38,054 nucleotides of DNA from positions 1 through 38,054 of IMG/VR virus record IMGVR_UViG_3300007345_000101. One strand, written 5' to 3'. The position numbers were made by a program, and so were the translations under genes. The notes below the pieces were generated by a model that worked only from the letters and a program-made list of their open reading frames with translations, ran no database searches and was not told where the DNA came from. This stretch comes from a virus. Shown one piece after another: positions 12,901 to 38,054 of this stretch (positions are counted from its first letter, which is position 1; each line of letters starts with the position of its first letter).

Positions 12901-14296
12901 GAATATCAAATAATCTTAGATCCCATTCTGTGGTATCATCTGAATATGATGCATCACTTACACCAAAAGAATATATTCTAGCTTCTCCTATCTTTTCTCC
13001 AGTTCCAGCAGTATTGCTAGTTGTTCTCTGATTATAAAGTTCAATAACATATGTCGAATCTCTGTTTAAACCAATAACAGGACTACCAAAAACGTTATTT
13101 ACTTTTAAAATATTTCCAAGATCAAGTGGAACCAAAGAATTTTCTACTGGTTTAGTATCTCTTGGTTTTTCTACATCAATAATTCTAGATCCAACTACCT
13201 CAATATCATATCCATTTACATAGGCCTTTCCAGGACCAACGGTTAAACAAAATAAATCATCTGATGGAATATTATCTTGTCTTGTTGTTTGTGTGTCTTC
13301 ATATATACCACCATTTCCAATCTCATCATTTAGACACTCATCTAATGTTAAATCAAAAGGAACTACGGAATAATCTCCAGATTCATCATATGTTCTTTTT
13401 GCAAAATAATCTTTGATAATATTGTATTGGGTTTTTTGTTCAGATTTTTCTGTAATTCCCTCATTTAGTCTTAAAAGTTCCACAAAAGAACGATCATCAA
13501 TATCATCAATATCTTTTTTGATTAGTTTTAACTCAAACTGAAATCTATCTGCACCTGGAGCTGAATAGTTATTAAATCCCCTAGCATTATCAAATAAAGT
13601 TTCATCTTCATTTGCGTTTACAGTTCTTTCAATAATACTCAAACCAATTCTATAAGATGGTTCATTTGTATATTGATCAAGAATTATTGTTTGTGAGTAA
13701 ACATTGACAAAATAACCACGAACAAAATACACACCTTCAGCAATTGATATTGCTGAACCAATAGCTGTTGCATTATCGGAAACTACCTGTGCAAAAGAAG
13801 ATCCTTCAGTAATAGTTGTATTTCCATATACTACATTTTCTTCAGCAAGAAGAAGTTCACTTTCAATAAAACTTACGTCTTCTCCATCATCATTTGAGTT
13901 TATGTACTTTACATATAAAGTAAGTTCTCCATCATCAGAATCTTCAGCTGATAATACATTTACAACTCTTGCAGTTACCTGAGTTGTTTGTCCTCTAATT
14001 ACAGTACCAATAAAATTATCGGCATATGTAGATACAGGAATCCCCAAAAACTCTGAGTTAATCTTTACAGAAAAATATTCATTATCGTAAGAAAGTCCCC
14101 CAGGTATTACTACAGAACCATCTTTAAAAAAGTGATCGCCAAAATTTTCAATCTGATTCTGAAGAATGGATTGTAGGTTGTTTAATTCCCTAGCTTGAAC
14201 TGGAAATCCAGGTTTAAACAATACCTTATAAAAATTATCAATGGGATCATAGTCATCAAAATAAGGTGAAACATTTAAATTTGTTTTTTGTGCCAT
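6911..14296 (-). CDS. Giant DUF4815-type tail/baseplate structural protein (2,461 aa)
   Basis: The N-terminus (NVSPYFDDYDPIDNFYKVLF, then KPGFPVQARELNNLQSILQNQIENFGDHFFKDGSVVIPGG) is the hallmark of the DUF4815 family of large phage tail/baseplate proteins. Visible later: an SSGATGY...GSFMEGEQISIDG module; two tracts resembling DUF4815-region beta domains; a Thr/Arg-rich low-complexity linker (about 1500-1650) ending in VTN repeats; a DPLAQSF motif (about 1656) followed by a jelly-roll-like SVDIFMATKD...LTVELRTID segment; GxGY units (about 1892-1935); an IGNEVVYYN...STRGAEGTSASSHAVGD module (about 2080-2124); and a beta-rich C-terminus. It occupies the place where T4 has gp9-gp12, so it probably supplies peripheral baseplate or fibre functions; that assignment is inference. 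Confidence 0.88.
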   Translation of the reverse strand: MAQKTNLNVSPYFDDYDPIDNFYKVLFKPGFPVQARELNNLQSILQNQIENFGDHFFKDGSVVIPGGLSYDNEYFSVKINSEFLGIPVSTYADNFIGTVIRGQTTQVTARVVNVLSAEDSDDGELTLYVKYINSNDDGEDVSFIESELLLAEENVVYGNTTITEGSSFAQVVSDNATAIGSAISIAEGVYFVRGYFVNVYSQTIILDQYTNEPSYRIGLSIIERTVNANEDETLFDNARGFNNYSAPGADRFQFELKLIKKDIDDIDDRSFVELLRLNEGITEKSEQKTQYNIIKDYFAKRTYDESGDYSVVPFDLTLDECLNDEIGNGGIYEDTQTTRQDNIPSDDLFCLTVGPGKAYVNGYDIEVVGSRIIDVEKPRDTKPVENSLVPLDLGNILKVNNVFGSPVIGLNRDSTYVIELYNQRTTSNTAGTGEKIGEARIYSFGVSDASYSDDTTEWDLRLFDIQTYTQLTLNEEYQYSKGTYFKGLSSGATGYASENWVSGDTVKLHQTSGSFMEGEQISIDGITEYPRSIKDIIIHTLNDVKSVYQDASTLGLQSDFVADVVLKSRVADGFRATDKITITSGGTVTSPGNKFTGIATNSIIRYQNTADAYDDEVYNRVTNVSSDGNSMTVVAISDIAGVATGLLPSSTTTVDFRIGETDFSFGDNGGSLFIELDRDNISTIDLSSANLPIYQQIDGLSTDSFGALTVNISSVGVSSALFENFDAERYSIHYSDGSIEDLTSDQFTINSDGTEVVFNGLTASETNVTLIATAKKRGLKSKIKQYTRSTKVTVNKSKNRSAGVSTNLANGLDFNSFYGLRVEDEEISLNYPDVANVVAIYESNTSDAPVLDRLVFETGLGLDTNSILGELIKGPNNQSVAKIVTRSSPTAVEIVYLNDQRFAVGEEVTFQESGIIGTIQSVVNGNYIDRTDDFILDDGQRQDIYDYSRLVRNAGIKIPAKQLLVIFDHYTILSTDEGDAFTVLSYDAERYKSDIPTIFTPNSVNGFSIIRASDTIDFRPRVSPFTGTTSSPFDYDSRDFSTTGSTTNLIPKAGESTIVGYEYYLPRMDRVILTADGFFRVVKGQSSDDPKTPTIVEDSMTLATIQLPPYLYDIDDAQITLMDNKRYTMRDIGEIESRVSNLEEVTSLSILENDTKSLQIQDADGLSRFKSGFFADDFKNGDLFDQEYTTCVVDAGIKQLSVPTSRITLSPQIAPAASNLAKTFDYTTNYELLDNFLQKTGNVVSLRYNEEKYIEQAFATRIENVNPFNIIEYTGTIRLEPSTDTWVTNKSETKKVTKNKFKTLTNRSRQFRTVNVVGKPRSGRTTMSTKTSRDTKVTSSRTSAITDVSTDIDTKSTSDPFIRRRNVSFFADGLKPFTRYYSFFDGSRKLDVFPKFLEIGNVVGSFRVGETVEGFTRNKNGKTVRRIVFRLCAPNHKTGDFKNPDLTLDFNPYNKNQSLENAKTYNTSSTFLNVDVNALSLAAQGSFFGFITPGMKLIGRTSGAQATVKTNRLVSDGLGSLYGSFFFRTPTKEQKIKFRTGTKTFKLTNVSNDTLPLPGSKKHSEAEAVYSATGTIQRTTLTTTQIRTITTTRNVVNTITQTNTFRFQKLPPPKIIRRTTVIDRTRTIRPQITRVTNVTNVTNVTNVRNVVEAPRRDPLAQSFLTDKKGAFITSVDIFMATKDNKAPLTVELRTIDLGLPTGQLVSLEAQVVLDPSQVKTSDDASVATRVTFSAPIPVLPETEYALVLLAPTSDRYNAWIAKLGEKTVNTKELSGPDQLQYTKQYGAGSLFKSQNGSTWTPTQFEDLKFRVNRCEFISKEGTATFYNPDIDHDSDILPELPQNPIKSLPRQLDVGITTVTQTSMQELLNIGRKVGSGSTVTGYIGNVGGPLSNIKVNIAGIGYSDGTYNDVSFFSITGSGSGAVGVVTVASNVVTEVSITTPGNGYVVGDTLGITTSDVTKGGRSQISVSNISGYDRLYLTGVRGEQFTVDESLVYYDDSETAVSLGNTFILNSTLTNNLYSGNVIEVLHPNHGMKDIRNSVEIYGVEPTRTPTTLSAAINATTATVSVADTTPFATFQGITTSAGFALIGNEVVYYNTIGSGTLGISTRGAEGTSASSHAVGDEIYPYEFNGISLTQINKTHEMPNDVIFQANKTIDTYYLEIDRGNRKTGENQLSFESELVAGGDNAWASGNIQYDRVNARLDIVLPKTTSIDTRIRTITGTSAGGIEPSFIDNGFAIAVPNSTLLFGQPMMVASKVNEDSQLDNLPRNKSFAIEVDLNTEDGRYSPFIYLDNCAIDFDRSRIDSPITDYVTDSRVNSLNNDPHAAIYVSDRIDMKNPATSLKLLTSAFVDTTSDIRALYRIFPVDSANTDQSFVLFPGYDNLRDTDGDGFGDLVIDAARNSGRPDQQVVTTGGSELREYQFSVDNLPPFTGYQIKIVFSGTNEAFTPRLNDLRTLALA
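9358..9396 (-). repeat. 9-bp tandem repeat encoding Val-Thr-Asn repeats
   Basis: On the plus strand a unit close to TTAGTTACG repeats about four times. Read on the coding strand it gives (V/N-V-T-N) repeats, ITRVTNVTNVTNVTNVRNVV. It sits in the low-complexity linker just before the DPLAQSF motif of the DUF4815-type protein. The 9-bp period keeps frame, so copy-number change would alter linker length without breaking the gene. Confidence 0.85.
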
Positions 14297-15902: not shown

Positions 15903-18900
15903 TTACAATAGAACTTGTTTAGCAACATTACCAGTGTTTCTCAGACCAACACCTCTTCTAGTAATAGAAGGATATGTGGTTAGTCCTACATCAAATGTAT
16001 TTCCATAAACTGTTAAAGAAATTGGACTATTACTTCTACTAAACTCACTCAATTTACCCCAAGAGAATTGGCCAACATCAAAACCAGTTGTTGTAGCAAT
16101 TCCAACGGTATCTGTGTCAGACTTAATATTGCAAGTCATGATTCCAGTATTACCAGTAACTGAATATTCATGGACAATATAGATATTGTCAACGTGTGTT
16201 GATCCAATACCAATCACTTCAGAATCCGAAGAATCAACAGAAGTCACTCCAGTTCCAGTTACAGTATTTTTAACAACAATTGGATAACCAGGCAATAGTG
16301 TTCTGAATAGTGAAACTGGCCCAGAATCGCTCAAATCAACTTGGAATTGGAGTGCTAATGGATGACCACCAGAACCATTTGCTGTACTGATTCCAGTTAT
16401 AATACCAGAATAACCGAGAACAATTTCTGCACCAGTGATTGTATCTGTTATTGGTGATGGAACTTCAACTATAACCTGTGGTGGATTTGTTACTGTATAT
16501 CCAAATCCAGGATTTACAATTGTTACAGAATCTAGAACACCATTAACGGCCGTTGCTGTAGCAGTGGCAGTTGTACCAACACCAATAATTCCATACTTTT
16601 CATTATCAACTTTTTGGGGACTTGAAATCTTAATAGAAACACTTCCATCATAATAACCAGATCCACCATCATTAATTACCAATGAAGAAATTGTTCCAGA
16701 AGAAGATACTACAGCGGAAACGGCAGCAGAAACTGGATCATTATAATCAACAATTAATCCATCACAAACAATTTCACCAAAATTAGATCCATCGGCATCT
16801 TCCTCATATTGGAAGAACTTTGCATCATCTAGGAAAATTTCAGTATCTGATGCTCCAAAATTACCAATAATTTTTCCTACTGGCATGATTTGAGATTCTA
16901 AAGAGTCTCTTGACTTAAATTGAATCTCTTCAGAGATGATAATGTCTCTCTTCTGTCTTGTGAAACTGATTGGGCGGAATTGAATATCGTTAATACCACG
17001 ATTACGATAGACATTTGTTTCAATATCCGTGGAATCAATAATTGAGAAGATGGTTCTCTCATCCTGAGTTTGAATATTTCCAGAGTTGGATTTCAACATC
17101 TGAACTTTATCACCAGGTTTGACTGTTTCATAAACAGTAACCAATTGACTATCAACACCTCTTGTACCTCTATAGAAGTAAATTGAGATCTCATCCTCTG
17201 GTCTTGGTGCAGATGTAAAGTTAAAGTTGAAACTTGTACCACCCTCAAAGAAATAATCTCTTCTAGGCACCTGAACAACACCATTAACAAAGATCAATAG
17301 GACAGCATCCAAATCGATTTCTACAGATTGCTGATCTGTAATATCTCTCTGGAAACTTAGACCATTTCCATTTAGATTGAGTGGGAATCTTGTTCTGAAT
17401 CCATCTTGTAAACTCCTAATAGAGTCAATATAATCAATTTGGCCAAAGTTCCATGCTGAGAATGTATCATTAAGAACATTAAGAACTTCTAATGTGAATT
17501 CGCTATAGTTTGTTCCAACACCAGCAGCGGTTACTAATCCAACAGGTCTAAATACATCACCTCTTAGGAATGCAAATCCAGGATTACTGATAGTGAAGTT
17601 AGTAATCGCAAAACTAGTTGTTCCGATTCCAGTTGTTGCTCCTGGACCAACGTTTACAGATACTGTTAAACCTTTTCCAGAATCAGTTGTTGAACCAAGT
17701 CCAATTCTACTTATACCTTCAATAGGTAAATTTGCATATGATGGATCAGAAACATTAATAGTTGGATTTGTATAACCAGATCCTTCACCAACAATATTGA
17801 ATGAGAGAGATCCGCCTTCATTAATATTTGCTGTTATCGTTGCGGCTGCACCTGTGTGTCCATCTTCTTCAATAGAAACTTGTGCAGATCCAAAATATCC
17901 AGAACCAAATGTTAACCCTTGATTAAACTTGGCAACTTCGCCACTTGCTACTCCAAATCTTCTGCTTGGAACGTAAGTATGTGCAAATCCGACTTTAAAT
18001 ACATCAACTTCAAATTCAGTTGGTGATTTAATAGTTTTTACATTATATGGATTGGCCGCCTTAACACCAAATACAATACCATGATCATCATAGATATGAT
18101 CAATTGTAGAAATACCCACATTGGTAATGATTTGATTTGATGCTGGAATATCAAATATCTTAAAGGTATTACCCTGAGTTCCATCTGGGAAGATTGAAGT
18201 TGTAATACCGATTCTGATCTTACCAGTTCCAGAAACATATGTATGATCAATTGTTGAAATACCAACATTGGTAACAATTGTTGTTCCAGCACTTCCAGCA
18301 TTGACATTGAAGTAGAAACCTTGAGTACCATCTGGGAAAATAGTTGTGGTAACACCTGCATGGGGAGCTGCACATGAGAATTCAATGTCACGAAGCATTA
18401 CCAAATCACCATCAGTCAATCCATGATCTTCATTCACTAGAATTGTACTTACACCAGTTGAAGCAGTGTAGTCAAAGTCATAGATGGCAATCTCATTGCC
18501 ATAAGCTAGACACGTAAAGGCAATTCCAGAAAGATTGATTTGATCACCAATTGCTAGGCCGCTATGATTCTTCTTAGTTGTAATTGTGGAGAAACCAGTG
18601 GTCTTATCATATTCAAAATTACCAATCGCAAAAGGAATGCCTCTAGGATCTGGGAATCTAGTAGTTGTAAATCCAGTTTCAACAACTCCACCAGAAACAT
18701 AGGTATGTGCAAACCCAACAGGAAGGACATTAGTGACAAATGTAGTTGGGCCAACAACGGATTGTACGAGATAACTATCAGCGTACTTAACATTTATCAT
18801 AAATCCACGTCTATTTGCACTAACAAATGTGTGTGCAATAGTAGAGACTCCAACATTAACTTCAAATGTTGTTGGGTCAGTTACACCTGTAACTTCAAAT

Positions 18901-21900
18901 TCATCAACAACTGTATCTGGGAATATAGTTGTTGTGACACCTGCATGGGGAGCTGCACATGAGAATTCAAGACCAGTTAGTCTTACGATATCACCAGTAG
19001 AGACATTGTGGTTTCTTCTTGTTGTTAAGGATAGTGCTCCAGTTGACTCAGTGTAAGTGGCATCCGATATTGCTCTTTCGACACCAAGATCACTTGGGAA
19101 TTTAGTTGTTGTGATTCCAACTTCAACCAAACCACCACTTTGGTATGTGTGTGCAATGGTAGAAATACCAACATTAACAACAAATTCAGTATCACTAACT
19201 ACAGAAGTTACTTCATTGAATATTCTTCCGTTAGTTCCATCTGGGAAGATCGTTGTGGTAACACCAGCGTGAGCTGCAGCACAAGAGAATTCAATATCTG
19301 ATAACCTTATAGTCATTCCAACATTGAGATCATGTGTGGAACTTGTAGTTACATTCAATGTTCCAGTTGTTTCATCATAAGTTGCATCAATAATTGAATA
19401 TGTGGTATCAAAATCTCCTTTTGAACATTCAAACTCAATATCTCTGAATTTGACTCTCATGTCCTTATTCAGATAGTGATCATCTGATGTGGTTACAGTC
19501 ATGATTCCAGAAATATGATCATAATCAATGGCGCTGATGCTAACAAGACTGTCATACCCACTGGTACAGTCAAGATCAATGTCTCTCATAGAAACAAAAT
19601 CATCACTGACTAATCCATGAGCCTCTAGAGTTGTTACTGTTGCAATACCACTAATACCATCATATACAAAATCAGTAATTGTACTATACGTACCAACAGT
19701 ATCAACACCAACAATGTTTGTAATAGTTCCACCTGCACCGACCTCAGCAATAACTTTAGCTCCAACAAGGGGTGCAATTCCTGTTCCACCAGAAGACGCA
19801 ATAGAGACGATTCTACCACCCACAGGGAGTTTATTTAAGATTGCATCAGATTCACTTATAAATGGATCACCACTGAGCAGTTTAACTCCGCTAAATTCAA
19901 CATTAACTTTATCTGAAGTTGGATTTAATTCATAAACATTACTTGGATTATTATCAGTTGTTTGTCCTTGGTGAATTCCATTGATGAATAAAACACCACT
20001 ACCACTTGAAGTATCCAATCCAACTGGATATTGGTTAGCAACTGTTAAGGAGAATGTTTTTGCAATTCCAGTAAAATCTGGTGAAACATCATCATAAATT
20101 TCATTTGTACTATAGTCCTGCTTCAGATAAACCCTTCCATTAAAATCGGATCTTGTATATTCAAGACCTCTTTCATCAAGAATAAAATCTCCACCAGCAC
20201 CTTTAGGTGCATCAACAAAGTGAACTTTACTTTCAACAATATTATAAGCACCTCTATGAACAATAGCTATTGTGCCATCGGCATGATCTGTTTCTTCGGT
20301 TCCAACAAACCCTCTTTGAACGTTTACAAGAGGGAATGTTCCACCACCACCAATTGGACCTGAAGATGATGTACCAAAACCAACATTAAGGATGTTCATG
20401 AATTCATCATCAATCCTTAAAATATAATCTGGAACCAAGGTTGAAATTCCAGACAGTGGAATATATGATAATCCAATACCAACATCAATTTGAGTTTCAT
20501 ATTCAACAAGTGTTCTCGCAATTGGAGCCTGAACAACACCGTCAAGGACAAATAGTGACTTCTCAAGTTTTTTAGTTGTATCAATTAGATGGTTGTTTCC
20601 AGAACCAGTTGTGGTGGGTTCAATTCCAATTCCTCTTAGTGCAAAGTCTTTCTTGGTTGCCAATTTGATGTTGTTATTATCAACTCTAATAGCAAATAGA
20701 TTTGATGGTAAAATATCAGTGGTAATACCAGAAGTAAACTGTTGTCTGCTAGTATTAGCAGTAGATACTACAGATAATGAAATTCCAATACCAAGTCTTT
20801 CTGAATAATAGGTACTACCAACACCAACAGGAACGTTATTGTCAACAGAAATTGAGTTTATACCAATTGATGTGATAGTTCCGAAACCAGTTTCGGATGA
20901 TAACTCTACAATAGTGTCACCAATGGCCAATACTGAGGTATTTGCGACGGATGTAATTACATTTGTACCATCAGAATTACCAATAAAGAATCTAAATGTT
21001 GATCCAATACTTACGATAGTTGCACCAGCACCAATTCCTGGACCAAAGAATTCTTCTGATACTGACAATCCAATATTTGTACTTGCAGAAGAAACAATCT
21101 TACTATCAACAAAAATATCACCAATTACACTATCACCACCAGAAATAGTTGTTCCAATTCCAATAGATTCTGAGTTTACACCAATAATAGATGATCCTGG
21201 AGTATAGACAATCTCTTGCCCACTTTGTAGAAAATGACTTTCTATGAAAATATTTCCAGTTATGGGATCTAATATAGTTGGGTTTTGTGGATTGAATCTT
21301 CTTGCAAAAATTGGGAAACCTTCATACTCTAGATCAAATTCAAGTTTTGCATTTGGAGTATATCTTGACTGAACTACATTTTCAATTACGGATCCATATC
21401 CAAAATCAGGAATAGATAAAACATTTGTATCCTGATCAATATAAACAATCTCAGTAAACTCTTCAATTCTAATAGCATCGCCATTGAACTTACTATCGGG
21501 ATTGAAGATTAGTTTCACAAAGTTTCCATCAAATTCAGAACTAAATGTTCCAAATCCAATGGCAGTATTGATACCAACTTGTGGATATTCAACAACAAAT
21601 GATTCAATAGTGCCAAAATCTTGAGTCATCATTACTTGACTCATTGATTGAGTATTTCCAGAAGAAACTCTAACAATGGATTTTGCAACACGATCATTTA
21701 GTGATGAAATTCCAACCACTGTAATGCCATATCCAGCCACAGTCTCTTCAATTACATTGGATTCCAATCTAGCAGTTCTTTCTGAACCACCATCTTGAGT
21801 TTCTAATTTGAAGAACTCAGATCTTAATCCAACATTTGTTGTCTTGAATCCAACAACATTTGCTTTAAGAGTTACTTGGTTTGTAAGATTATTTGTGTAG

Positions 21901-24900
21901 TTTAATGCAAAAACATCAGAGGATTGGTCATATTCTGTTCCAAAAGTACCAATTGGGTTGAATGATAGAAGTCTATCTTCAGTATTAAACCCATATTCTG
22001 CAATATATGCATTAGATTCATCATGTACGACTGATACTTCAACATAATCTCTTTCCTGAGTAACAACATCAGTAATCTCAACATAAGCAAAGAATGAATT
22101 AAATGTTGATGATCCAACAGAAACAATATCTACACTACCACTTGATGGAACGGTTGATGTTACACCAGTAATAACTGAATCGCCAATAGTAATACTACCC
22201 CTAGCTTGTGGTCTAGAATCAAATAGTTGACGGAAAGCTTTTAAATCATAGGTTTTGAGTGGATTTGATGGTGTAAATCTTAAAGAAACAGTTCCTGATG
22301 CGTCATCAACTTCTGAAGTTATTTCACCAAGAGTTGCCTTTTCAAGTTCATCTGTTACTTGAATTTGAGGATTTGATTTAATTCTCGTTTTTTGAAGAAT
22401 AAATGAATTTGGTGTAGAATCAGTAAGAACAACAACTTCATGAACTTCATATGAAGTAACATCTACCACATCCCTAACAATAACGATAAATCTAGATGCT
22501 CCAGTCCCACTTGGATATACAATAATATCTTTAAAGTTTCCAACAGTGTTTTCGAAATCAATAAATTCCGAAGAAATATCATCAACAACAAGAACCCTAT
22601 TTGTTAAACATTCAATATAATTTGTCAATCTTCTATTGCCAAATTTAATTGAGTTTGTAATTGCAAATGGATCATAGACAACATCTGTATCAACAGCAAA
22701 ATCAAAGTTATTGATTGTAGTAACATCAGCTTCAGAGAATACATCCAGTACAAGAGATTGTGCTCCCTCTTCAACAAAATTTGTAGATGCTACAGCAACT
22801 GACTCAATTTGAGTATCAGCAAAGTTTTTGGTTCCTGAAATATGGGCTAATCTGTTTACTGGATCAATAAAATCTTCAAATTCAATTGGACTCTTGATAG
22901 AGTATGCCATTCTCTGATAATAATCATTATCTGGAATAACTTGAGAGTCATTATTCAAGAATCCTCTATTATCTGTCCAACCATATCTGATAGATGAACC
23001 ATAATCAACTTCATAAAGGCCATCATATCTAACAATTCTTTCTATGGTAGATTGTGTTCCAGAAACCTCACCAATAATTACATCACCAACAACAAGATCA
23101 TAATCTCCGAATGTTTTAAGTCTAAAATCATCAGAAAGAACAACTTTCAAGTCAGTTTTGATTTTGTTGTTTCCTTTTACAACAATTAAAGTTTCATTAT
23201 TAATAAATCTCGCACTCTTTGTTGTTACAGAGAAAGTTGGATAATTTTCTTTCTTGACAATGCTTCCAAAGTTTACCGATGTTACGGCAACTCCAGGATT
23301 TGTGCTGATACCAGATAAATCAATTGTAACTGTTGATGGAACGATGCCACCATTGAAACTCAAGACATTAAAGAATCTAAATTTATAATCTTTAGAGTTA
23401 AATCCAGAACCTTCGCCAGTATATTCTTGAATACCATCAACAAAAACTTCATCGCCAGGATTTAAAGGATTTGTACTGAACCCAAGAACTGGAGTTACAA
23501 CGGTAAATGTTGCAATACCAGTACTTACACTATCGGCAGAAATAACGCTTAGGCCATTATCTCCAATCAGAGCATACACTGAATGAGCAACTCCAGCTAA
23601 TCCAGTTCCAGGTGATATAATTTCAACATCTTTTATTGATCCAGATTCAATGTCACAAATTAGAGAAGCATTTTCAACCTGTTTGCCAGTTGATGAATTC
23701 ACTAGAACCAAATTTGGAGCAGAAATATAATTTTTTCCACCAGACAATGGCATAACTTCATCTAATGTTTTGTTATCTGTCAACTCATAATATGTTGGAA
23801 TATCTGCAATTGGTTTTAATGTTTTATCAACAGAGAAATCGTAACCAGACTTTTGTACCTCAGTTGAAACTAGAATACCAATTTTAGATGAAGATGCAAT
23901 TAATTCTGCATCTCTACCAAAAGCAGATATTACTGTAGAAATTCCAGGAGATATTACGTAATCACTCCCATCTGAAATTATTCTTGTGTCAGAAATTCCA
24001 CCAAATGCAGTCTTGGATCTTGTAGTATATGAAAGAACATCACACTCTGAAGATGTATATGAACTCTTCTCTGCAGATTTTTTGAGATTGACTAAAAATG
24101 ATGTTGATGCTACGCCAACAACACTTGTTCTTCCACTGTAAGCACTATCCACAAATAAAATTCTGGAATAGTTCTTTGCAAAAGTGTCTGATTCGATTAA
24201 GGTATTTGTTGAAACTTTCTCAAGATTGTAATATAATTGATTTGGTAAAAGATCATTAAATTTAATAGTTAGAGTAGCTGTGGTTGTACCAATTCCAATA
24301 GTACCTTCTTTTTCAATTTCAAAAATACTAGATTGACCACTTCCAACAATTCTATTTCTAAAAGTTTGATCATAATAAACTTTAAAATCATATCCAGACA
24401 GTGAAGAATCTGATAGATCAAATATTAAATCATTATTTTTAATAACTGGAATTTCTGGATTTACTTTTGATATAGTATGATTGGTTCCACCAATTGATGT
24501 GAAGTTCAATAAGTTTAATTCATTTCCTGTGATATCACTAATAGTTTCTGCCAGGGAAAAACTGTCTGGATCGCCTGAATACACAAAATATTTGCCAGTC
24601 TCTATACCACCTGGAAGTTCATCTGCATTATAGAAAACTAAATCTCCAGTAATAAAACCATGGCCATCAACTAAAATTTTAGAACTAGACAGTCCAACTG
24701 ATGAAGAGGTAAATCCAATTGGATTCACTACAAGATTTTGTGTGAATTCTTCAAAGAGAACTTTTATTGATGTTGAGGTTCCAATTCCTACAGATAGGTT
24801 TGGTTTTACTGAAATATTAACTCTATCACCAACAACCAATCCATGTGAAGATGCTGTGGAAACTCTAGATGACAATCTATCAATATTTGCTGTAATTTTA

Positions 24901-27900
24901 TTGTTGATAGTTTCTATGTAATATTCGTAACTATCACTATCAGAATTGCTAAAGAATAACTGATCAGAGTCCAAAGTTGTCTTAAGACCAATTAAATTTT
25001 TGCTTTTGTTGACAACGTATAAAGTTTGACTATTTCCAGACTCTGGTAGATTAAATGTTGAACCAGCACTTACAGTCGCAACAGCCACTGGATTGCCAGA
25101 AGATGTCTTTACAAACTTGATTAGTTGGTTATTTCTTAGTTTGTGATCCTCAATGTATATTGATTGTGTTAATATGCTCCTATTTGTTGTTACACCAAGG
25201 ATATCATAATCTCTTACGGTAGAGACGCCAACTTCTGTACCAAAACCAATAACCTCTGTTGGATTAAAATAATATACATCATCAACTTTAGAATCAAAAT
25301 TATCTCCAGGGAAATCGATAATTATGTTATTTGCTTTTGATGTGATTGCAACTGCAACAGTATGAGCACTGCCGGCTATTCCTCTTACTGCCCTTACAAT
25401 TCCCCTAAAATTATCAAAAATATTTTTAGATTTAAATACATTTAGAACGGTCAGTGTTTCATCACTGATCTGAATATCAGTATTTGGTCTAAGATACTCT
25501 GGTAGTGGAGTTATTGGAATATCAGTAACCATACCACCCACTGCTTCTGGAGGCATCTCAGATAACATTGTAAAATTATCAGCAGCAACACCAATAACTT
25601 TATCTCCACTTAGGCCAGAAATAAATGTTGATAGACCACTTATTTTAACAATATTTCCAGCTTCTAAATCATGATATGTTGAGATATATCCAACAATTTG
25701 ATTTCCATTAAGACGCTCGAAAGTAAAATTTTCATAAGAAAGTATTTCTTCGGTAATACTTTCAACTTGATTTCCAGTTAACTCAAGAACCTCGGCAGAG
25801 GCTCCTCCTCCACCAGTTCCCTCATTGTCAAATATTATATTATCACCAACTTTATAATTTGTTCCAGGGTCAATAATTGATATTGTCTCAACACCACCAT
25901 CTTTTTTGGATTTTACTAGAATTCTCTGTAGTTCGTCTTTGTATGGTTCTGTAAAGAAATCATATCCTGCATTCTCTTCAGTTACATTATATGGGAATGT
26001 ATTTCTAATTAATCCATCTGCGTTAAATTCATAATCCTGATTAATTTCTACAGAAGATCCTATAATATTTTCTTCTAATAATGTTGATCTATAAGTGTTT
26101 CCGATAAAATATGGGAAACTTGATATAATATTGCCAGTCAGGGGATCATTTTCAATAGTGGCATAATAAGCATAAACTCCATTGGGATATTCAGGTGTTT
26201 TTGAAAATCTTCCATTATGTACATCTAAATCACCAGATCCTTTGAATACATAGTCATCAACAAAAGTTCCAGATGGGAATCCAGAAGGCCTATTTTCAAT
26301 ATTACTTACATCTAATTCGTATCCAGATTCTATTTGCTTGATTGTAGATCTTGAATCTTCTGGATCAGTATATGCATATGCACCATAAATTGGATTTCCA
26401 TCATATGCATAACCAATTAGAGGTGAGTGTGCATTTACATTAATATCTTCAAAACTTGTTTTTAAGTTTTCATTATACCCAACTATACCATATTCTAGTT
26501 GATTTTCTCCACGATCAAAAACAGTCTCTCCATTATATTCAGAGAATCTTGTTCTATTATTTAATGATAGACTTCTAACTTTAACGTTAAATGTAGCTTC
26601 TGAACCCCTTGATTGACCAATTACAAAAGTGTCCGATGGGTCATAATTTGTTCCAGGGTTTAATACAATTACATCGATAACTTTACCAGTTTCGTCAATA
26701 ACTGCTCTTGCCTTTGCTCCAAATCCAGATCCACTTGTAATTATTACGTCTGGTGGAGAGAAGTAATTTTGTCCAACTTGTGCAACTGTAATATCAATGA
26801 TTTTTCCATCAATAATTAGTGGTATAAACTCAACCCCAGTTCCATTCAATATGGTGATTCCAGGTTTTTTCTCAAAGTTTAAAATATCTGAACCATAATC
26901 CGTACCCTTTTCATATACTAAAATATCTACCACTTCACCTTTTACAATTGGAGTTGCCGTTATGACACCAACCGTATTTGCAATTGAAACATTTATATTT
27001 ACTTCAATTGGTTGATAATTAAAAATATGTAGCCCAGTTCCAATTCCAGATATTTTTTTAACTAATCCACGATCAAAATTAGTGGTATTTGTTCCACCAA
27101 TTCCAGCGTCTGATAGTCTAAAATTATCATCATCTACTTTAATTACATAATATTGATTTGCAGTACTCAACCCAACAATTTCATCCCCAGTTGTTGAATA
27201 TGTAACAATTTCTCCAGTGTTATATCCATGAGATTCGAATCTAAGGGAATTTGTGATCGTTGAAATACCAGTGGTTTTAATAGCCACTTCTCTATTTGAA
27301 TATCCAGAACCAGAATTAAGTACATTAACACCTGTCAGTTTCTTCGTGGAATCTTGCAATCTAAAAATATGTTTACCACCAGAAATAGATCCAGTACTAA
27401 ATCCTACAGTATTAATACCACTATTAAAATCTGATATTGTATCATATAATCTAAAACTAACTGAATCTATGATTTCCGCATAATAAACCCCGCCAGTTTC
27501 CAGGAAATTTCCAGTTAAATTGGTTTGCCCAAATCCAGTGATTGGAATTGATGGGTTTCCATTTGGATCATAAATTATTGCTTCGCCATTTTTAAAATTG
27601 TGATTGTTTATTGATCGAATAGAGTCTTGATATACAGAAACACCCCCACCATCACTTGCATATTTTCCACTAAAGTCAACCTCTCTAAAATAATCAATTA
27701 AGATTGGTTCAACTTCAGCTCCAGATCCATTTCCACCAACAATTGAAATGTCACTAACACCATTGATATTAAAGTCTTGAGGGTTAATTAAAATATCTTG
27801 CAAAGAACCAACAATGGCAACATTGGCTTGTGCATTTGTTGCTCCAACTAAACTTGGGCTAGTGATATTGACTTTTGGTGGGTTAACAACATCATATCCA

Positions 27901-30152
27901 CTACCACCATTGAATAGTGTGATTTCTTGTAGTGGTCCATAATAAATTTTATCATCAACTTTATAGTTAATGATTTCTACACCATTAATTAACATTCCAG
28001 TTGGGCCAGGAATTGTTTTAATTTCACTACCAGTATCAAAAGATCTTACTAGATTAAATTTTTTGAGTAGTTTTTGTGGATTAATCTTTTTATTATATTG
28101 AGATGCTAAGATAAACTGATGACTTCCAGTATCGCCATCAGATGGCTCATCAATTTTAATATTTTGACTTGCCTCAATAAATGATCTTGCAACATATAAT
28201 TTAATTTTATTACTTGGTGATAGAACCTCTATAAAATAATTTCTACCAAATTCTAGTCCTTCAATAGGTGTTACTGCAGTTCCAGCAGTATATACAATCT
28301 CATCACCAGTTATGAATGGAACATTTCCAGCAAAAGAAATAATGTTATATGTACCATCTGCATTCTGATCCTGAATAGATCCAGATCCAGTAGATGCTTC
28401 GTTTATTGATCTAGAAATAGTCTCAATATCAATCTCATAATCTGGTAAAGAGTTTGAGGCTACAAAGATCTCATTACTATCTTTGGAAAGATAGGTATTT
28501 AGAATATTTGCATTAATAGTATCATTTCCATATTGAAGTTCAATTCCAGAACTACTAGATTTCTTTAGTTTTCTTCTAATGTCATAATTGGCATTTGGAA
28601 TAAGATTGCTAATTCCAGTACCAGATAATACAACTTCATTATCACCAGTAATTGTTACGGTGGCTTCGTTTACTGCTATATTATCACTACCTCTAAATAG
28701 GACTTCTACAGTATCATTATTACGAAGGTATGCTTTATCAATATTAGTACCAAGAACAAAAACAGATCCAGAAAAACTGATAATTCGAATTCTAGATGAT
28801 GTATTATATTTCCAGGAGTTGAATGTAATTTGACTTACAGTTTTATTACCGCTGGGATTTTTAATTTTTCTACCGACTGACTTGACTCTAAAAACATCAT
28901 TAATTTCAGTATTAGTAATTTCTTTCCCTTCAATTTCTTGAAATTTTGAAATGGTTCCAGTTAAACGAAGTTCAACCTTTTCATTTGTACCTCTCGTATA
29001 TCCATAAATGATGTCATTTGTTCTTACACTATCATTTGTTTGAATAGTTTGAACAATACCAGAACAATTTAAAAATTGATTGACTGTTTTATCCGTATAT
29101 GTGATTGTATTATTTCCAACAACTAATAATCCGCTTTTTGGAAATCCAATTGTTGTGTCAACGGTGAGTACGTTTGATCCTATTGAAGCTCCACCAATAC
29201 ATTTTGTTTCTGGTGTGATTGAAAATGTACCTTCAAATCCAGGTGAGGGATCAACATACTTCTGAAATAGATAAATGTTGTAATAGTCTTTACCATCTCT
29301 ACTATTATATTCTACCTCTGAAATGGGAGCAGATGCTCCATTTATATTTGAATTATTTGAGTTTGAGTCCTGATATAAAGTTTGACCAGATAGTAAAAGA
29401 GGGTCTCCTCCAGATATTTTTTCGGCTACTAAAAATAGTCTTCTTCTGAATTCTGATTCTGAAGAAGAAAATAGAGAATTGGTATTATTCGTAATCGATG
29501 CATTCTCACCAAATAAGCATGACATTAAAATGTTAAAGGAACCTTCAGTGCCTTTAGATTGGTAGAATGATCTTAAATTTTTGATGAAGTTGTTTACGTT
29601 CAAATCTGAACTAAAACTCTCATCCTCAAATCCAGGAGCAAAAATTACCTTTAAGTTTCTAAAAAATTCTTTGAGGAAAAGAGCACTTAGATTTGTTACA
29701 GTATCTCCAGAAGTATGTGATTCGGCTGAGGTCTTCTCAAATACAACTTCCCCAGAAGAATAGTCACTTATACCACTAAATCCACGAACACATCCAGTAA
29801 ATGAATTTGCTGTAATTTGAGTATAATAAACAATTTCATTGCCAACTTTAAAGAGTCCATTCTTATTTGGATAACCCTTTGTTGACTCTACGTAAAATAC
29901 CGAATCATCTTCAGTTACATTAGCAGTTAGAGTGGTTGTTCCACTAATAACTTCTGGTGTTAAATTATCAAACTTTAGATATTGATCTAAATTATCAATA
30001 ATATCTGCAGATAAACCCTGAGAATCTTGAGAAAGATAGTATTGCTTTAAAAAATCTATTGATTTGGGATTTTCAATTGCCACATAAGATGGCAATTGCC
30101 CTTGAATAATTTCACTTACTTTTACGCGCTTATCAATTCCTGGCTCTATCAT
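15903..30152 (-). CDS. Giant baseplate wedge protein in gp7 position (4,749 aa)
   Basis: One uninterrupted frame of 14.25 kb, over a third of the window. Placement between gp6 and gp8 matches T4 gene 7. Near the N-terminus, FIKNLRSFYQSKGTEGSFNI, followed by LMSCLFGE (about 188-215), resembles the T4 gp7 segment with FYSTKGIEAS...LYNE that I recall, supporting a gp7-like core; T4 gp7 is only about 1,032 aa. An N-terminal GNEIVYYTQI...GCVRGFSG module (about 95-150) precedes it. The rest is a very long beta-rich array with several GxGY units, a tandem repeat block (about 3490-4065) and repeated VGIST-type strands. The C-terminus (FDVGLTTYPSITRRGVGLRN) recurs, from memory, in large cyanophage proteins. 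The ATG follows the gp6 stop directly (TAA-A-ATG). It probably initiates the wedge and adds a large peripheral structure. The gene symbol is left blank because homology over the full length is unproven. Confidence 0.85.
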   Translation of the reverse strand: MIEPGIDKRVKVSEIIQGQLPSYVAIENPKSIDFLKQYYLSQDSQGLSADIIDNLDQYLKFDNLTPEVISGTTTLTANVTEDDSVFYVESTKGYPNKNGLFKVGNEIVYYTQITANSFTGCVRGFSGISDYSSGEVVFEKTSAESHTSGDTVTNLSALFLKEFFRNLKVIFAPGFEDESFSSDLNVNNFIKNLRSFYQSKGTEGSFNILMSCLFGENASITNNTNSLFSSSESEFRRRLFLVAEKISGGDPLLLSGQTLYQDSNSNNSNINGASAPISEVEYNSRDGKDYYNIYLFQKYVDPSPGFEGTFSITPETKCIGGASIGSNVLTVDTTIGFPKSGLLVVGNNTITYTDKTVNQFLNCSGIVQTIQTNDSVRTNDIIYGYTRGTNEKVELRLTGTISKFQEIEGKEITNTEINDVFRVKSVGRKIKNPSGNKTVSQITFNSWKYNTSSRIRIISFSGSVFVLGTNIDKAYLRNNDTVEVLFRGSDNIAVNEATVTITGDNEVVLSGTGISNLIPNANYDIRRKLKKSSSSGIELQYGNDTINANILNTYLSKDSNEIFVASNSLPDYEIDIETISRSINEASTGSGSIQDQNADGTYNIISFAGNVPFITGDEIVYTAGTAVTPIEGLEFGRNYFIEVLSPSNKIKLYVARSFIEASQNIKIDEPSDGDTGSHQFILASQYNKKINPQKLLKKFNLVRSFDTGSEIKTIPGPTGMLINGVEIINYKVDDKIYYGPLQEITLFNGGSGYDVVNPPKVNITSPSLVGATNAQANVAIVGSLQDILINPQDFNINGVSDISIVGGNGSGAEVEPILIDYFREVDFSGKYASDGGGVSVYQDSIRSINNHNFKNGEAIIYDPNGNPSIPITGFGQTNLTGNFLETGGVYYAEIIDSVSFRLYDTISDFNSGINTVGFSTGSISGGKHIFRLQDSTKKLTGVNVLNSGSGYSNREVAIKTTGISTITNSLRFESHGYNTGEIVTYSTTGDEIVGLSTANQYYVIKVDDDNFRLSDAGIGGTNTTNFDRGLVKKISGIGTGLHIFNYQPIEVNINVSIANTVGVITATPIVKGEVVDILVYEKGTDYGSDILNFEKKPGITILNGTGVEFIPLIIDGKIIDITVAQVGQNYFSPPDVIITSGSGFGAKARAVIDETGKVIDVIVLNPGTNYDPSDTFVIGQSRGSEATFNVKVRSLSLNNRTRFSEYNGETVFDRGENQLEYGIVGYNENLKTSFEDINVNAHSPLIGYAYDGNPIYGAYAYTDPEDSRSTIKQIESGYELDVSNIENRPSGFPSGTFVDDYVFKGSGDLDVHNGRFSKTPEYPNGVYAYYATIENDPLTGNIISSFPYFIGNTYRSTLLEENIIGSSVEINQDYEFNADGLIRNTFPYNVTEENAGYDFFTEPYKDELQRILVKSKKDGGVETISIIDPGTNYKVGDNIIFDNEGTGGGGASAEVLELTGNQVESITEEILSYENFTFERLNGNQIVGYISTYHDLEAGNIVKISGLSTFISGLSGDKVIGVAADNFTMLSEMPPEAVGGMVTDIPITPLPEYLRPNTDIQISDETLTVLNVFKSKNIFDNFRGIVRAVRGIAGSAHTVAVAITSKANNIIIDFPGDNFDSKVDDVYYFNPTEVIGFGTEVGVSTVRDYDILGVTTNRSILTQSIYIEDHKLRNNQLIKFVKTSSGNPVAVATVSAGSTFNLPESGNSQTLYVVNKSKNLIGLKTTLDSDQLFFSNSDSDSYEYYIETINNKITANIDRLSSRVSTASSHGLVVGDRVNISVKPNLSVGIGTSTSIKVLFEEFTQNLVVNPIGFTSSSVGLSSSKILVDGHGFITGDLVFYNADELPGGIETGKYFVYSGDPDSFSLAETISDITGNELNLLNFTSIGGTNHTISKVNPEIPVIKNNDLIFDLSDSSLSGYDFKVYYDQTFRNRIVGSGQSSIFEIEKEGTIGIGTTTATLTIKFNDLLPNQLYYNLEKVSTNTLIESDTFAKNYSRILFVDSAYSGRTSVVGVASTSFLVNLKKSAEKSSYTSSECDVLSYTTRSKTAFGGISDTRIISDGSDYVISPGISTVISAFGRDAELIASSSKIGILVSTEVQKSGYDFSVDKTLKPIADIPTYYELTDNKTLDEVMPLSGGKNYISAPNLVLVNSSTGKQVENASLICDIESGSIKDVEIISPGTGLAGVAHSVYALIGDNGLSVISADSVSTGIATFTVVTPVLGFSTNPLNPGDEVFVDGIQEYTGEGSGFNSKDYKFRFFNVLSFNGGIVPSTVTIDLSGISTNPGVAVTSVNFGSIVKKENYPTFSVTTKSARFINNETLIVVKGNNKIKTDLKVVLSDDFRLKTFGDYDLVVGDVIIGEVSGTQSTIERIVRYDGLYEVDYGSSIRYGWTDNRGFLNNDSQVIPDNDYYQRMAYSIKSPIEFEDFIDPVNRLAHISGTKNFADTQIESVAVASTNFVEEGAQSLVLDVFSEADVTTINNFDFAVDTDVVYDPFAITNSIKFGNRRLTNYIECLTNRVLVVDDISSEFIDFENTVGNFKDIIVYPSGTGASRFIVIVRDVVDVTSYEVHEVVVLTDSTPNSFILQKTRIKSNPQIQVTDELEKATLGEITSEVDDASGTVSLRFTPSNPLKTYDLKAFRQLFDSRPQARGSITIGDSVITGVTSTVPSSGSVDIVSVGSSTFNSFFAYVEITDVVTQERDYVEVSVVHDESNAYIAEYGFNTEDRLLSFNPIGTFGTEYDQSSDVFALNYTNNLTNQVTLKANVVGFKTTNVGLRSEFFKLETQDGGSERTARLESNVIEETVAGYGITVVGISSLNDRVAKSIVRVSSGNTQSMSQVMMTQDFGTIESFVVEYPQVGINTAIGFGTFSSEFDGNFVKLIFNPDSKFNGDAIRIEEFTEIVYIDQDTNVLSIPDFGYGSVIENVVQSRYTPNAKLEFDLEYEGFPIFARRFNPQNPTILDPITGNIFIESHFLQSGQEIVYTPGSSIIGVNSESIGIGTTISGGDSVIGDIFVDSKIVSSASTNIGLSVSEEFFGPGIGAGATIVSIGSTFRFFIGNSDGTNVITSVANTSVLAIGDTIVELSSETGFGTITSIGINSISVDNNVPVGVGSTYYSERLGIGISLSVVSTANTSRQQFTSGITTDILPSNLFAIRVDNNNIKLATKKDFALRGIGIEPTTTGSGNNHLIDTTKKLEKSLFVLDGVVQAPIARTLVEYETQIDVGIGLSYIPLSGISTLVPDYILRIDDEFMNILNVGFGTSSSGPIGGGGTFPLVNVQRGFVGTEETDHADGTIAIVHRGAYNIVESKVHFVDAPKGAGGDFILDERGLEYTRSDFNGRVYLKQDYSTNEIYDDVSPDFTGIAKTFSLTVANQYPVGLDTSSGSGVLFINGIHQGQTTDNNPSNVYELNPTSDKVNVEFSGVKLLSGDPFISESDAILNKLPVGGRIVSIASSGGTGIAPLVGAKVIAEVGAGGTITNIVGVDTVGTYSTITDFVYDGISGIATVTTLEAHGLVSDDFVSMRDIDLDCTSGYDSLVSISAIDYDHISGIMTVTTSDDHYLNKDMRVKFRDIEFECSKGDFDTTYSIIDATYDETTGTLNVTTSSTHDLNVGMTIRLSDIEFSCAAAHAGVTTTIFPDGTNGRIFNEVTSVVSDTEFVVNVGISTIAHTYQSGGLVEVGITTTKFPSDLGVERAISDATYTESTGALSLTTRRNHNVSTGDIVRLTGLEFSCAAPHAGVTTTIFPDTVVDEFEVTGVTDPTTFEVNVGVSTIAHTFVSANRRGFMINVKYADSYLVQSVVGPTTFVTNVLPVGFAHTYVSGGVVETGFTTTRFPDPRGIPFAIGNFEYDKTTGFSTITTKKNHSGLAIGDQINLSGIAFTCLAYGNEIAIYDFDYTASTGVSTILVNEDHGLTDGDLVMLRDIEFSCAAPHAGVTTTIFPDGTQGFYFNVNAGSAGTTIVTNVGISTIDHTYVSGTGKIRIGITTSIFPDGTQGNTFKIFDIPASNQIITNVGISTIDHIYDDHGIVFGVKAANPYNVKTIKSPTEFEVDVFKVGFAHTYVPSRRFGVASGEVAKFNQGLTFGSGYFGSAQVSIEEDGHTGAAATITANINEGGSLSFNIVGEGSGYTNPTINVSDPSYANLPIEGISRIGLGSTTDSGKGLTVSVNVGPGATTGIGTTSFAITNFTISNPGFAFLRGDVFRPVGLVTAAGVGTNYSEFTLEVLNVLNDTFSAWNFGQIDYIDSIRSLQDGFRTRFPLNLNGNGLSFQRDITDQQSVEIDLDAVLLIFVNGVVQVPRRDYFFEGGTSFNFNFTSAPRPEDEISIYFYRGTRGVDSQLVTVYETVKPGDKVQMLKSNSGNIQTQDERTIFSIIDSTDIETNVYRNRGINDIQFRPISFTRQKRDIIISEEIQFKSRDSLESQIMPVGKIIGNFGASDTEIFLDDAKFFQYEEDADGSNFGEIVCDGLIVDYNDPVSAAVSAVVSSSGTISSLVINDGGSGYYDGSVSIKISSPQKVDNEKYGIIGVGTTATATATAVNGVLDSVTIVNPGFGYTVTNPPQVIVEVPSPITDTITGAEIVLGYSGIITGISTANGSGGHPLALQFQVDLSDSGPVSLFRTLLPGYPIVVKNTVTGTGVTSVDSSDSEVIGIGSTHVDNIYIVHEYSVTGNTGIMTCNIKSDTDTVGIATTTGFDVGQFSWGKLSEFSRSNSPISLTVYGNTFDVGLTTYPSITRRGVGLRNTGNVAKQVLL
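17960..19680 (-). repeat. Tandem protein-repeat block in the giant baseplate protein
   Basis: Units of roughly 70-110 codons repeat about six times, with diverged copies. A full unit has a strand like YDxTTGxLxVTTxxxHxL, then VRLxDIEFSCAAPHAGVTTT, IFPDGT, a variable strand, NVGISTIAHTYVSGG and a GITTTxFP. DNA copies of the SCAAPHAGVTTTIFP segment are near-identical around 18,335-18,380, 18,920-18,965 and 19,240-19,290. Unit boundaries vary and some copies lack the Cys-containing strand. Confidence 0.85.
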
Positions 30153-37289: not shown

Positions 37290-37348
37290 GACAGTTTGAG
37301 AATTGGCCGCGGCCCAGAAATGGCCCAACTGCCAATCCACGAACTGTC
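37290..37348. other. Nested stem-loop between small genes
   Basis: Three nested perfect arms: GACAGTT (37290-37296) with AACTGTC (37342-37348), TTGGC (37303-37307) with GCCAA (37331-37335), and GGCC (37311-37314) with GGCC (37322-37325), separated by symmetric six-base internal loops. It lies in the 150-base gap between the 57-aa and 45-aa genes. No T-run follows on either strand. It may be a structured 5' or 3' RNA element. Confidence 0.5.
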
Positions 37349-37379
37349 ACAGTATCTCTTGATTAATGTTTATTTAAAT

Positions 37380-37553
37380 TTAAAATGAATAATTATCATC
37401 TTTAATTGTTGTATATAACTCTTCGTCTCCTTCTAATCCCAACAGCTTTGACCAATTCTCATCATCTTGTGGAAGCTCCAGATCATCATAAACATACATG
37501 TCTAATATGACACGTACGTGACGTTTTTGTGCGACAGACATTGCGTATGACAT
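37380..37553 (-). CDS. Small protein of unknown function (57 aa)
   Basis: Reads MSYAMSVAQKRHVRVILDMY, then VYDDLELPQDDENWSKLLGL, EGDEELYTTIKDDNYSF. A basic N-terminal helix followed by an acidic half (DDLELPQDDENWSKLLGLEG). A second ATG three codons in is possible. No family recognised, though short proteins with V.VL.MYVYDDLELP.D..W. seem familiar from cyanophages. Confidence 0.6.
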   Translation of the reverse strand: MSYAMSVAQKRHVRVILDMYVYDDLELPQDDENWSKLLGLEGDEELYTTIKDDNYSF

Positions 37554-37582
37554 GTGATGTGTGAATCTAGATGTACATTATA

Positions 37583-37729
37583 TCATGCGTAATGCTTGTA
37601 TGCAAGCTCTACGAGATCGTATGTGTTGTGTGCATATTCCTCGTCGAGATTATGTGCATATGTGTCAATCTCGTCGAGACTTTCATAATGCACATCAATG
37701 ATGTGATCTAGTGCGAAATCGTCGTACAT
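37583..37729 (-). CDS. Small acidic protein (48 aa) downstream of repeat-flanked promoter
   Basis: Reads MYDDFALDHIIDVHYESLDE, then IDTYAHNLDEEYAHNTYDLV, ELAYKHYA. Acidic and Tyr/His-rich, with SLDEIDTY / NLDEEYAH internal repetition that corresponds to two TCTCGACGAG copies in the DNA. Expected to be expressed from the TATAAT at 37765-37770. No family recognised; probably an early phage peptide. Confidence 0.55.
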   Translation of the reverse strand: MYDDFALDHIIDVHYESLDEIDTYAHNLDEEYAHNTYDLVELAYKHYA

Positions 37730-37733
37730 GTGT

Positions 37734-37830
37734 GAATCTAGTCGAGATGTTTGTGTACTTGATGATTATAGCACTATATATGCGAATCTAGTCGAGATCT
37801 GTGATATGTGTTCATAATCTAGTCGAGATC
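37734..37830 (-). repeat. Three copies of ATCTCGACTAGATT around a promoter
   Basis: Minus strand copies ATCTCGACTAGATTC at 37748-37734, the same at 37798-37784, and GATCTCGACTAGATTA at 37830-37815. Each contains an ATCT-5-AGAT dyad. Starts are 50 and 32 bp apart. Two diverged copies (TCTCGACGAG) fall within the 48-aa gene at about 37,641-37,680. Confidence 0.7.
37765..37795 (-). promoter_or_regulatory. Candidate sigma70-like promoter of the 48-aa gene
   Basis: Minus strand TATAAT (37770-37765), perfect -10. The best -35, TCGACT (37795-37790, four of six), is 19 bases upstream and lies inside repeat copy 2. The predicted start is about 30 bases before ATG 37729, with repeat copy 1 in the leader. 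The long spacer and weak -35 suggest activator or repressor control. Confidence 0.5.
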
Positions 37831-37991
37831 TCTGATAGAAATCTCTGATAAATCTGGGGGTTGACAAAGACTCTCTCCTGTGTTATGACGGGCTTTACTC
37901 ACAACGGCCCCGCACATTCTCTACACATTCTCAGACGGATTTTTAAAGGTTTATCTAAAGGTATTATTGGATAGTATCCAGAGAATTCTTC
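37831..37991. other. Non-coding stretch with short palindromes
   Basis: No credible gene on either strand. It holds GGATA-G-TATCC (37969-37979), GAGAATTCTTCTC (37981-37993) and, on the plus strand, TTGACA-17-TATGAC (37861-37889), which would point right against the direction of all genes here. Confidence 0.4.
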
Positions 37992-38054
37992 TCAATAATA
38001 TAACATTTCCAGCCATGTAGTTTTATCCATTTTTAATATATCTTGAAATGCTAA
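37992..38054 (-). CDS. Possible C-terminus of a gene entering from the right edge
   Basis: An open frame enters at the right edge and ends after LAFQDILKMDKTTWLEMLYY at a TGA (37992-37994). The last 20 residues look protein-like (helical, balanced composition), but the start is outside the window, so the call rests on little. Confidence 0.35.
   Translation of the reverse strand, partial: LAFQDILKMDKTTWLEMLYY

Follow-up and report, generated by a model that had tools for sequence, protein, structure and literature searches.

The locus examined in this study raises the question of what three identical copies of a short dyad are doing around the promoter of a small phage gene, and whether they act as the operator that their layout recalls. 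The window, by which we mean the whole stretch of DNA that was analysed, is the 38,054-base IMG/VR virus record IMGVR_UViG_3300007345_000101. T4-like tail, baseplate and head genes are among its genes, and its alignment with Synechococcus phage S-T4 covered 91% of the 24 kb searched at 78.7% identity; by these sequence features the window is placed as a fragment of a T4-like cyanomyovirus near S-T4. The repeats lie on the minus strand at the upstream edge of a series of small genes, ahead of the baseplate genes, which are themselves adjoined by two giant ORFs (15903-30152, 4749 aa, and 6911-14296, 2461 aa).

The earlier note had described three copies on the TATAAT promoter of a 48-aa gene, here called gene A, with one copy on the -35, one in the leader and one upstream; exact matching together with shuffling confirmed the copies, which are exact and share one strand, and the layout is as it was claimed (Table 1). 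ATCTCGACTAGATT is the sole 14-mer with at least three copies in the window, and in none of 200 dinucleotide shuffles of the window did any 14-mer occur three times within 120 bp. A simple scan allowing three mismatches gave six matches, a number reached in 25 of 100 shuffles and thus not significant alone, so the significance comes from the exact clustering and not from the count of 3-mismatch matches. The TATAAT (37765-37770, minus strand) is preceded by TGC, making an extended -10 element, and the transcript of gene A is predicted to start near 37758. This promoter was not listed by the automatic sigma-70 scan of the window, in our opinion because its -35 is poor. The ATCT-5-AGAT dyad formerly ascribed to each copy is better described as a 15-bp pseudo-palindrome, AATCTCG-W-CGAGATT, the consensus of 351 sites before gene A; the window copies (TAG form) are a single-arm variant, one arm position off this consensus. 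A shortened site-like string, AATCTAGAT, was also noticed at 37564-37582 before the downstream gene B, with a TATAAT at 37577-37582 (minus strand) just past the end of gene A, as if B had a small copy of the promoter layout.

Table 1. Sites, promoter element and genes of the array locus, listed in the direction of transcription
Feature	Position	Strand	Basis
Site copy 3, upstream site	37816..37829	minus	exact ATCTCGACTAGATT
Site copy 2, covers -35 position of gene A promoter	37785..37798	minus	exact ATCTCGACTAGATT
Extended -10 element TGCTATAAT, gene A promoter	37765..37773	minus	sequence; top 9-mer there in relatives, 31/103
Site copy 1, leader, ends 5 nt before ATG at 37729	37735..37748	minus	exact ATCTCGACTAGATT
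Gene A, 48-aa acidic protein, ends ELAYKHYA	37583..37729	minus	50 related loci; profile match in 166/198 viral loci
In-gene site GTCTCGACGAGATT, 0-mismatch core at 37669, encodes S-L-D-E-I	37667..37680	minus	core scan; codon test
In-gene site, 1 mismatch, encodes N-L-D-E	37639..37649	minus	core scan
In-gene site, degenerate, 2 mismatches, encodes D-L-V-E-L	37606..37616	minus	core scan
Gene B, 57 aa, phrog_12516, downstream partner of A	37380..37553	minus	B at most 400 bp downstream of A in 86/104 loci

Gene A is under purifying selection, with pN/pS of 0.23-0.56 in six pairs among five loci, and its 122 distinct copies are 42-71 aa long, carry a net charge between -18 and -6 and share a conserved end that reads LAYRHYA in the consensus. 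Its profile was made from 17 seeds, PSSM2_098 of P-SSM2 among them, and some of the 198 viral loci profiled had been fetched through gene A itself; with reduced seeds, gene A was still recovered in 160-161 of the 198 loci, compared with 166 with all seeds. Family matches of gene A are weak (Pfam at E 0.09, which misses the cut-off, and phrog_19393 at E 0.007) and its structure model is poor (67.5). Gene B had no Pfam match; its model (pLDDT 85.5) is an extended chain plus one helix, with a best PDB match of E 5.1. In neighbour clustering of 109 gene-A loci, gene B was the sole tight partner (86 loci), the next family accompanying gene A in 56 of the 109 at varying distance.

The genes and the array can part, as the combinations seen in three genomes indicate. 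Sf-CH5 carries gene B and a relative of gene A (E 1.6e-4 with a profile made without the Sf-CH5 copy) behind a plain promoter, with no sites, no array and no LDE at the locus; the gene A protein therefore does not need the repeats, and the LDE repeats come with the array. In a 172-kb genome (G010), gene A was not found and the array precedes gene B. Many half-sites (ATCTCG) surround the eight full sites there and stand before gene B (G010:C1:82100-82850). Gene B also possesses a separate TTGACA/TATTAT pair, whose spacer contains a half-site; the locus looks to have lost gene A. In P-SSM2, no gene B was found, and PSSM2_098 occupies gene A's place by the array. It is weakly recognisable as A, with E 0.005 when it and four other seeds were left out of the profile, and was not listed at E 0.1 by a profile lacking the P-SSM2 and Sf-CH5 seeds.

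The arrangement found in the window is conserved among relatives. For the count of placements, the 166 gene-A loci were reduced to 122 without identical regions, to 109 by distinct protein and to 107 with 130 bp upstream. A -10 box (at least 5/6) was present in 103 of these 107 loci, and among the 103 a site with up to two mismatches lay in the -35/-10 spacer in 80, where 72 of the 80 start 17 or 18 nt before the -10, while a leader site stood against the start codon in 96; both occurred together in 77. Loci found by protein gave the same picture, with at least one site (up to one mismatch) in 27 of 28 distinct upstream regions, at least two in 26, and 0/28 in the reversed controls. These 28 regions are the 50 related loci minus one with too little upstream and 21 duplicates, and the peptide patterns used included LDE stretches, so that the search was not wholly blind to the in-gene sites. 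In the other direction, gene A lay within 350 bp in 101 of 141 motif-found loci, a count that is not de-duplicated, further off in 8, and was absent from 32. Because the loci are related, the placement counts and the codon counts given below are not independent. Taken with this limit, the conservation in relatives strongly supports the operator-like placement on the promoter that had been proposed.

We consider it rather likely that the triplet belongs to an operator array through which a dimeric DNA-binding protein represses the A-B operon. A putative dimeric protein would recognise AATCTCG-W-CGAGATT as duplex DNA and, when occupying the -35/-10 spacer (or the -35 itself) as well as the transcript start of gene A, would block host RNA polymerase at an early-type sigma-70 promoter. 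The upstream and in-gene sites may assist through cooperative binding, and the A-B operon would stay silent, or be silenced after an early burst. When spacers of 16-18 nt were scored, the best was 17 nt in 77 of the 103 promoters, 18 in 17 and 16 in nine, and 17 nt is a normal length, which fits a blocking operator. It is unlikely that the bound protein is instead an activator, recruiting or remodelling RNA polymerase in a MerR-like way from the spacer and turning the A-B operon on. The site between -35 and -10 with further sites upstream, and the weak -35 of many promoters (TTGCAT in 27 and TTGCAA in 18 of 103), would suit an activator, but a perfect TTGACA stands in 34 of the same 103, the prevailing spacer among the lengths scored is not the 19-20 nt of the MerR type, and another site sits on the transcript start and leader, a blocking position.

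The motif is spread over phages of Synechococcus and Prochlorococcus. Exact site pairs with a free gap were found in 24 viral stretches, and the pair TCTCGWCKAGA-N8-38-TCTCGWCKAGA in at least 120 IMG/VR stretches, S-T4's own record included. Arrays are present in S-T4, S-SRM01, S-SKS1, P-SSM2 and P-SSM5, and site clusters also in the single-cell virus contig AG-345-L05. Whole-genome PWM scans located six high-scoring sites within 210 bp in S-T4, eight within 250 bp in G010, five within 165 bp in P-SSM2, two that are 97 bp apart in S-SKS1, and fourteen in S-SRM01, grouped in three clusters within 5.5 kb, with a further isolated site at 154369. All places scoring at least 14 in S-T4, G010 and P-SSM2 sit in one cluster of 164-248 bp per genome, and the five array genomes scanned whole hold one to three arrays each. 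By gene layout, about 9.5 kb of the start of the S-T4 record (MH412654) recurs at its end (positions 1 and 171570), probably through assembly overlap, which gives the genes concerned a double annotation. In this end repeat the array region is identical and the first 85 bases match; since its two copies belong to the duplication, the S-T4 array was counted once.

An exact core scan detected no clusters, and at most one exact core match each, in 12 cyanophages (Bellamy, S-PM2, Syn9, S-RSM4, S-SM2, S-SSM7, S-RIM32, Sf-CH5, Sf-CH1b, S-CAM9, S-PRM1 and S-RIM4). In Bellamy, a 45-bp match near gene B is without a core site. PWM matches above 9 show no excess over the reversed control in P-SSM2 (6 vs 8) or S-SKS1 (2 vs 4) and array-free genomes have lone matches (Sf-CH5 15.8; S-SM2 14.7 and 14.0), so the signal consists of score height and clustering. 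In a stretch of S-SKS1 (L099:5630-6276, reverse-complement coordinates) and its relatives, gene A was seen with many one-orientation half-sites (ACGAGATA-like) and not with full palindromes. As a host check, a genome collection was scanned for site pairs, a scope that is not informative on single sites in host promoters. It returned 65 stretches, nine of them with at least three sites within 300 bp; no cyanobacterium was named in their titles, and none encoded gene A or B.

Other small genes also carry arrays. Among 162 motif-found clusters, again not de-duplicated, 101 precede gene A, 24 family D (53 aa), 14 family C (62 aa) and eight gene B without A, while 15 precede none of these. Under the stricter test, a clear sigma-70 promoter was present at 5/15 C arrays and 2/21 D arrays compared with 101/106 A arrays, and a bare TATAAT-like hexamer at 9/15, 11/21 and 104/106, respectively; likewise, a fixed placement relative to promoter elements was found at gene A, not at the C and D arrays. 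Promoter occlusion cannot be the whole story, because the C and D arrays are mostly without a clear promoter, and such arrays may be roadblocks, titration sites or DNA-organising centres. The expectation of the site near other promoters is borne out in part: other phages have it again at the orthologous promoter and ahead of further small genes, but the strong sites of S-T4, G010 and P-SSM2 are confined to a single cluster, and the other small-gene arrays mostly lack a clear promoter. On the sense strand, the linkers between sites contain little G (a fraction of 0.125 before A and of 0.07 before D), which the operator reading does not explain.

Several individual arrays deserve mention. Arrays before gene D (e.g. 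L188, L168) have linkers that are A/C-rich on the sense strand. In S-SRM01, the A array is followed downstream by two more, of which one precedes gene C (L098:8120-8255) and the other lies in the gap before an opposite-strand HNH endonuclease gene (L098:10908-11007). Upstream of gene A in two loci (L076, L077), the tandem-duplicated unit consists of a site plus a NATAAATA-like late promoter string (cgcataaataatgc), and judging from such strings late promoters may carry sites as well.

By analogy with T4 oriE, the arrays could be a replication or DNA-organising element around small early genes, such as an iteron-like origin or a partition-like or packaging site, which we regard as improbable. 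It would agree with the low number of arrays per genome (one to three in the five scanned whole), the C and D arrays without clear promoters, the G-poor, strand-biased linkers, the position upstream of baseplate genes as in T4, and the S-T4 cumulative GC skew, whose maximum falls in the 1-kb bin adjoining the array. But in the five array genomes the cumulative skew has a single direction and reaches its extremes no more than about 5 kb from the record ends, so that it marks nothing at the arrays outside S-T4, where the array lies about 3 kb from the end of the record. The T4 oriE stretch is without the core site beyond two weak 2-mismatch matches, its tandem repeat is a 24-bp period inside gene 5, and repEA/repEB are antisense within gene 5 whereas A and B are not. 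The sites before gene A are, moreover, tied to the -10 and the ATG.

The central W of the motif bears on whether DNA or RNA is recognised. Spacer sites have an A:T ratio of 28:52 at this base, and the ratios are 27:20 for the C arrays and 34:30 for the D arrays, compared with 100:51 upstream of gene A and 93:3 in the leader. Both orientations occur, and recognition of duplex DNA is therefore favoured over RNA, although the A bias in the leader and upstream of gene A is not predicted by pure duplex recognition. We find it quite doubtful that the sites work in the transcript, as hairpins or as motifs bound by a protein or sRNA. The nearly fixed leader orientation (A centre in 93/96), the upstream bias, the G-poor linkers, the arrays between co-directional genes, and the location of sites by the ATG, in coding sequence and in promoter-poor intergenic regions would all accord with such a role; against it, the spacer sites are outside the transcript of the gene A promoter and the centre base is near balance in the C and D arrays. 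Arm variants before A comprise eight double (pair-keeping), 138 single and 163 none, so that the pair-keeping double change is rarer there than independence predicts, though it occurs at 8/111 sites before C and D. The predicted RNA fold of the array in the window does not stand out (z -0.74), and Rfam gave no match in window positions 37300-38054 at E up to 0.1.

The sites continue into the coding sequence of gene A, and the claim that diverged in-gene copies are mirrored in SLDE/NLDE residues is sustained by three cores found there (Table 1) and by codon use. In gene A relatives, LDE/LVE is spelled CTCGACGAG in 125 of 172 cases, and Asp is GAC:GAT 141:21 within LDE/LVE vs 349:712 elsewhere in gene A. 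In five of six pairs the LDE codons show fewer synonymous changes than other parts of the gene, and in the sixth the two are about equal. As judged from this codon usage, the copies inside gene A dictate its codons (LDE as CTC GAC GAG). Multiplication of a short repeat in an unconstrained region without any binding function is very improbable, since the palindrome and its positions are kept where linkers differ, the LDE codons change synonymously less in those five pairs and the same motif recurs across phages of different genera, even though linkers were duplicated along with sites in at least L076, L163 and L174.

If the arrays are operators, a binder should exist, and it was sought by gene content with blastp of ORFs, comparing five array genomes (S-T4, G010, S-SRM01, P-SSM2 and S-SKS1) with four array-free ones (Sf-CH5, Syn9, S-SM2 and S-PM2); no candidate regulator appeared among the matches listed. 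Among these, two S-T4 ORFs match all five array genomes and none of the four array-free ones, namely a pyrimidine-dimer DNA glycosylase by Pfam (112583-113110) and an ORF without a Pfam match (97307-98926). An 81-aa protein with a helix-turn-helix-like stretch near the G010 array was set aside, as it occurs in three array loci only. Gene B is a tight partner of A, yet present without arrays in Sf-CH5. The AbrB-like protein named in the earlier note as a possible regulator is still a candidate, though one that gains no specific support, its family (phrog_661) being present in 16 of 18 cyanophage genomes, 6/6 with arrays and 10/12 without. A host protein is possible as the binder.

The element is a concrete, conserved cis-element in a setting where control of early and middle genes of T4-like cyanophages is called unresolved in the main text of PMC2984593. 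It is present in the cultured phages P-SSM2, S-SKS1, S-SRM01 and S-T4, which makes the putative binder retrievable with a 15-bp bait, and gene A is a clear example of how regulatory DNA can shape a protein sequence. As a tentative extension, the arrays may mark an undescribed cyanophage regulon, in which one phage-borne or host-borne trans-acting factor, common to Synechococcus and Prochlorococcus phages, would act via AATCTCGWCGAGATT arrays on the A-B operon and on a handful of further small genes, with the in-gene sites dictating part of the protein.

In phage lambda, the OR/OL regions are multi-operator repressor sites over sigma-70 promoters. The gene A array is similar in having several palindromic sites about one promoter, including the -35/-10 spacer and the vicinity of the transcript start, but it differs in that no repressor gene was recognised here, the sites run into coding sequence and the other arrays are mostly without a clear promoter. 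Promoters of the MerR type have a palindromic operator in a -35/-10 spacer of 19-20 bp; they share with the gene A promoter a palindromic site between -35 and -10, whereas the spacer here is mostly 17 nt among the lengths of 16-18 nt scored, and further sites lie in the leader and in gene A.

T4 oriE, as presented in the main text of PMC3016281, comprises iterons, an early-mode promoter and the small early genes repEA/repEB near baseplate genes. The array locus resembles it in its small early genes, early-mode promoter, clustered repeats and nearby baseplate genes, and departs from it in that the array motif is absent there, gene 5 contains the T4 repeat with its 24-bp period, and repEA/repEB run antisense to that gene. 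Since the period of this tandem repeat, which lies beside the oriE mark (L380:1403-1570, T4 gene 5), is a multiple of three, the published oriE iterons may be repeats that code for protein.

No description of the array was found in the main texts of the open-access literature, supplementary files and subscription papers being outside this scope, and the core string appears in the phage literature in a terminator table (PMC5349666, as far as its main text goes). According to the main text of PMC5082946, 95% of the genes that P-HM2 and P-SSM2 have in common are assigned to the same time cluster. For cyanomyoviruses, the main text of PMC2984593 describes early promoters as sigma-70-like and late ones as NATAAATA, calls the mechanism of early and middle transcription unsettled and gives motA and asi homologues as missing. 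The gene A promoter is like the early sigma-70 type, and NATAAATA-like strings near sites in some relatives recall the late promoters; unlike that account, whose passages on promoters, motifs, repressors and origins mention no operator and whose main text lacks the word repressor, the gene A promoter carries operator-like sites. By its layout, the array appears to work like a known kind of switch, and what seems unusual is its spread into coding sequence and promoter-poor gaps.
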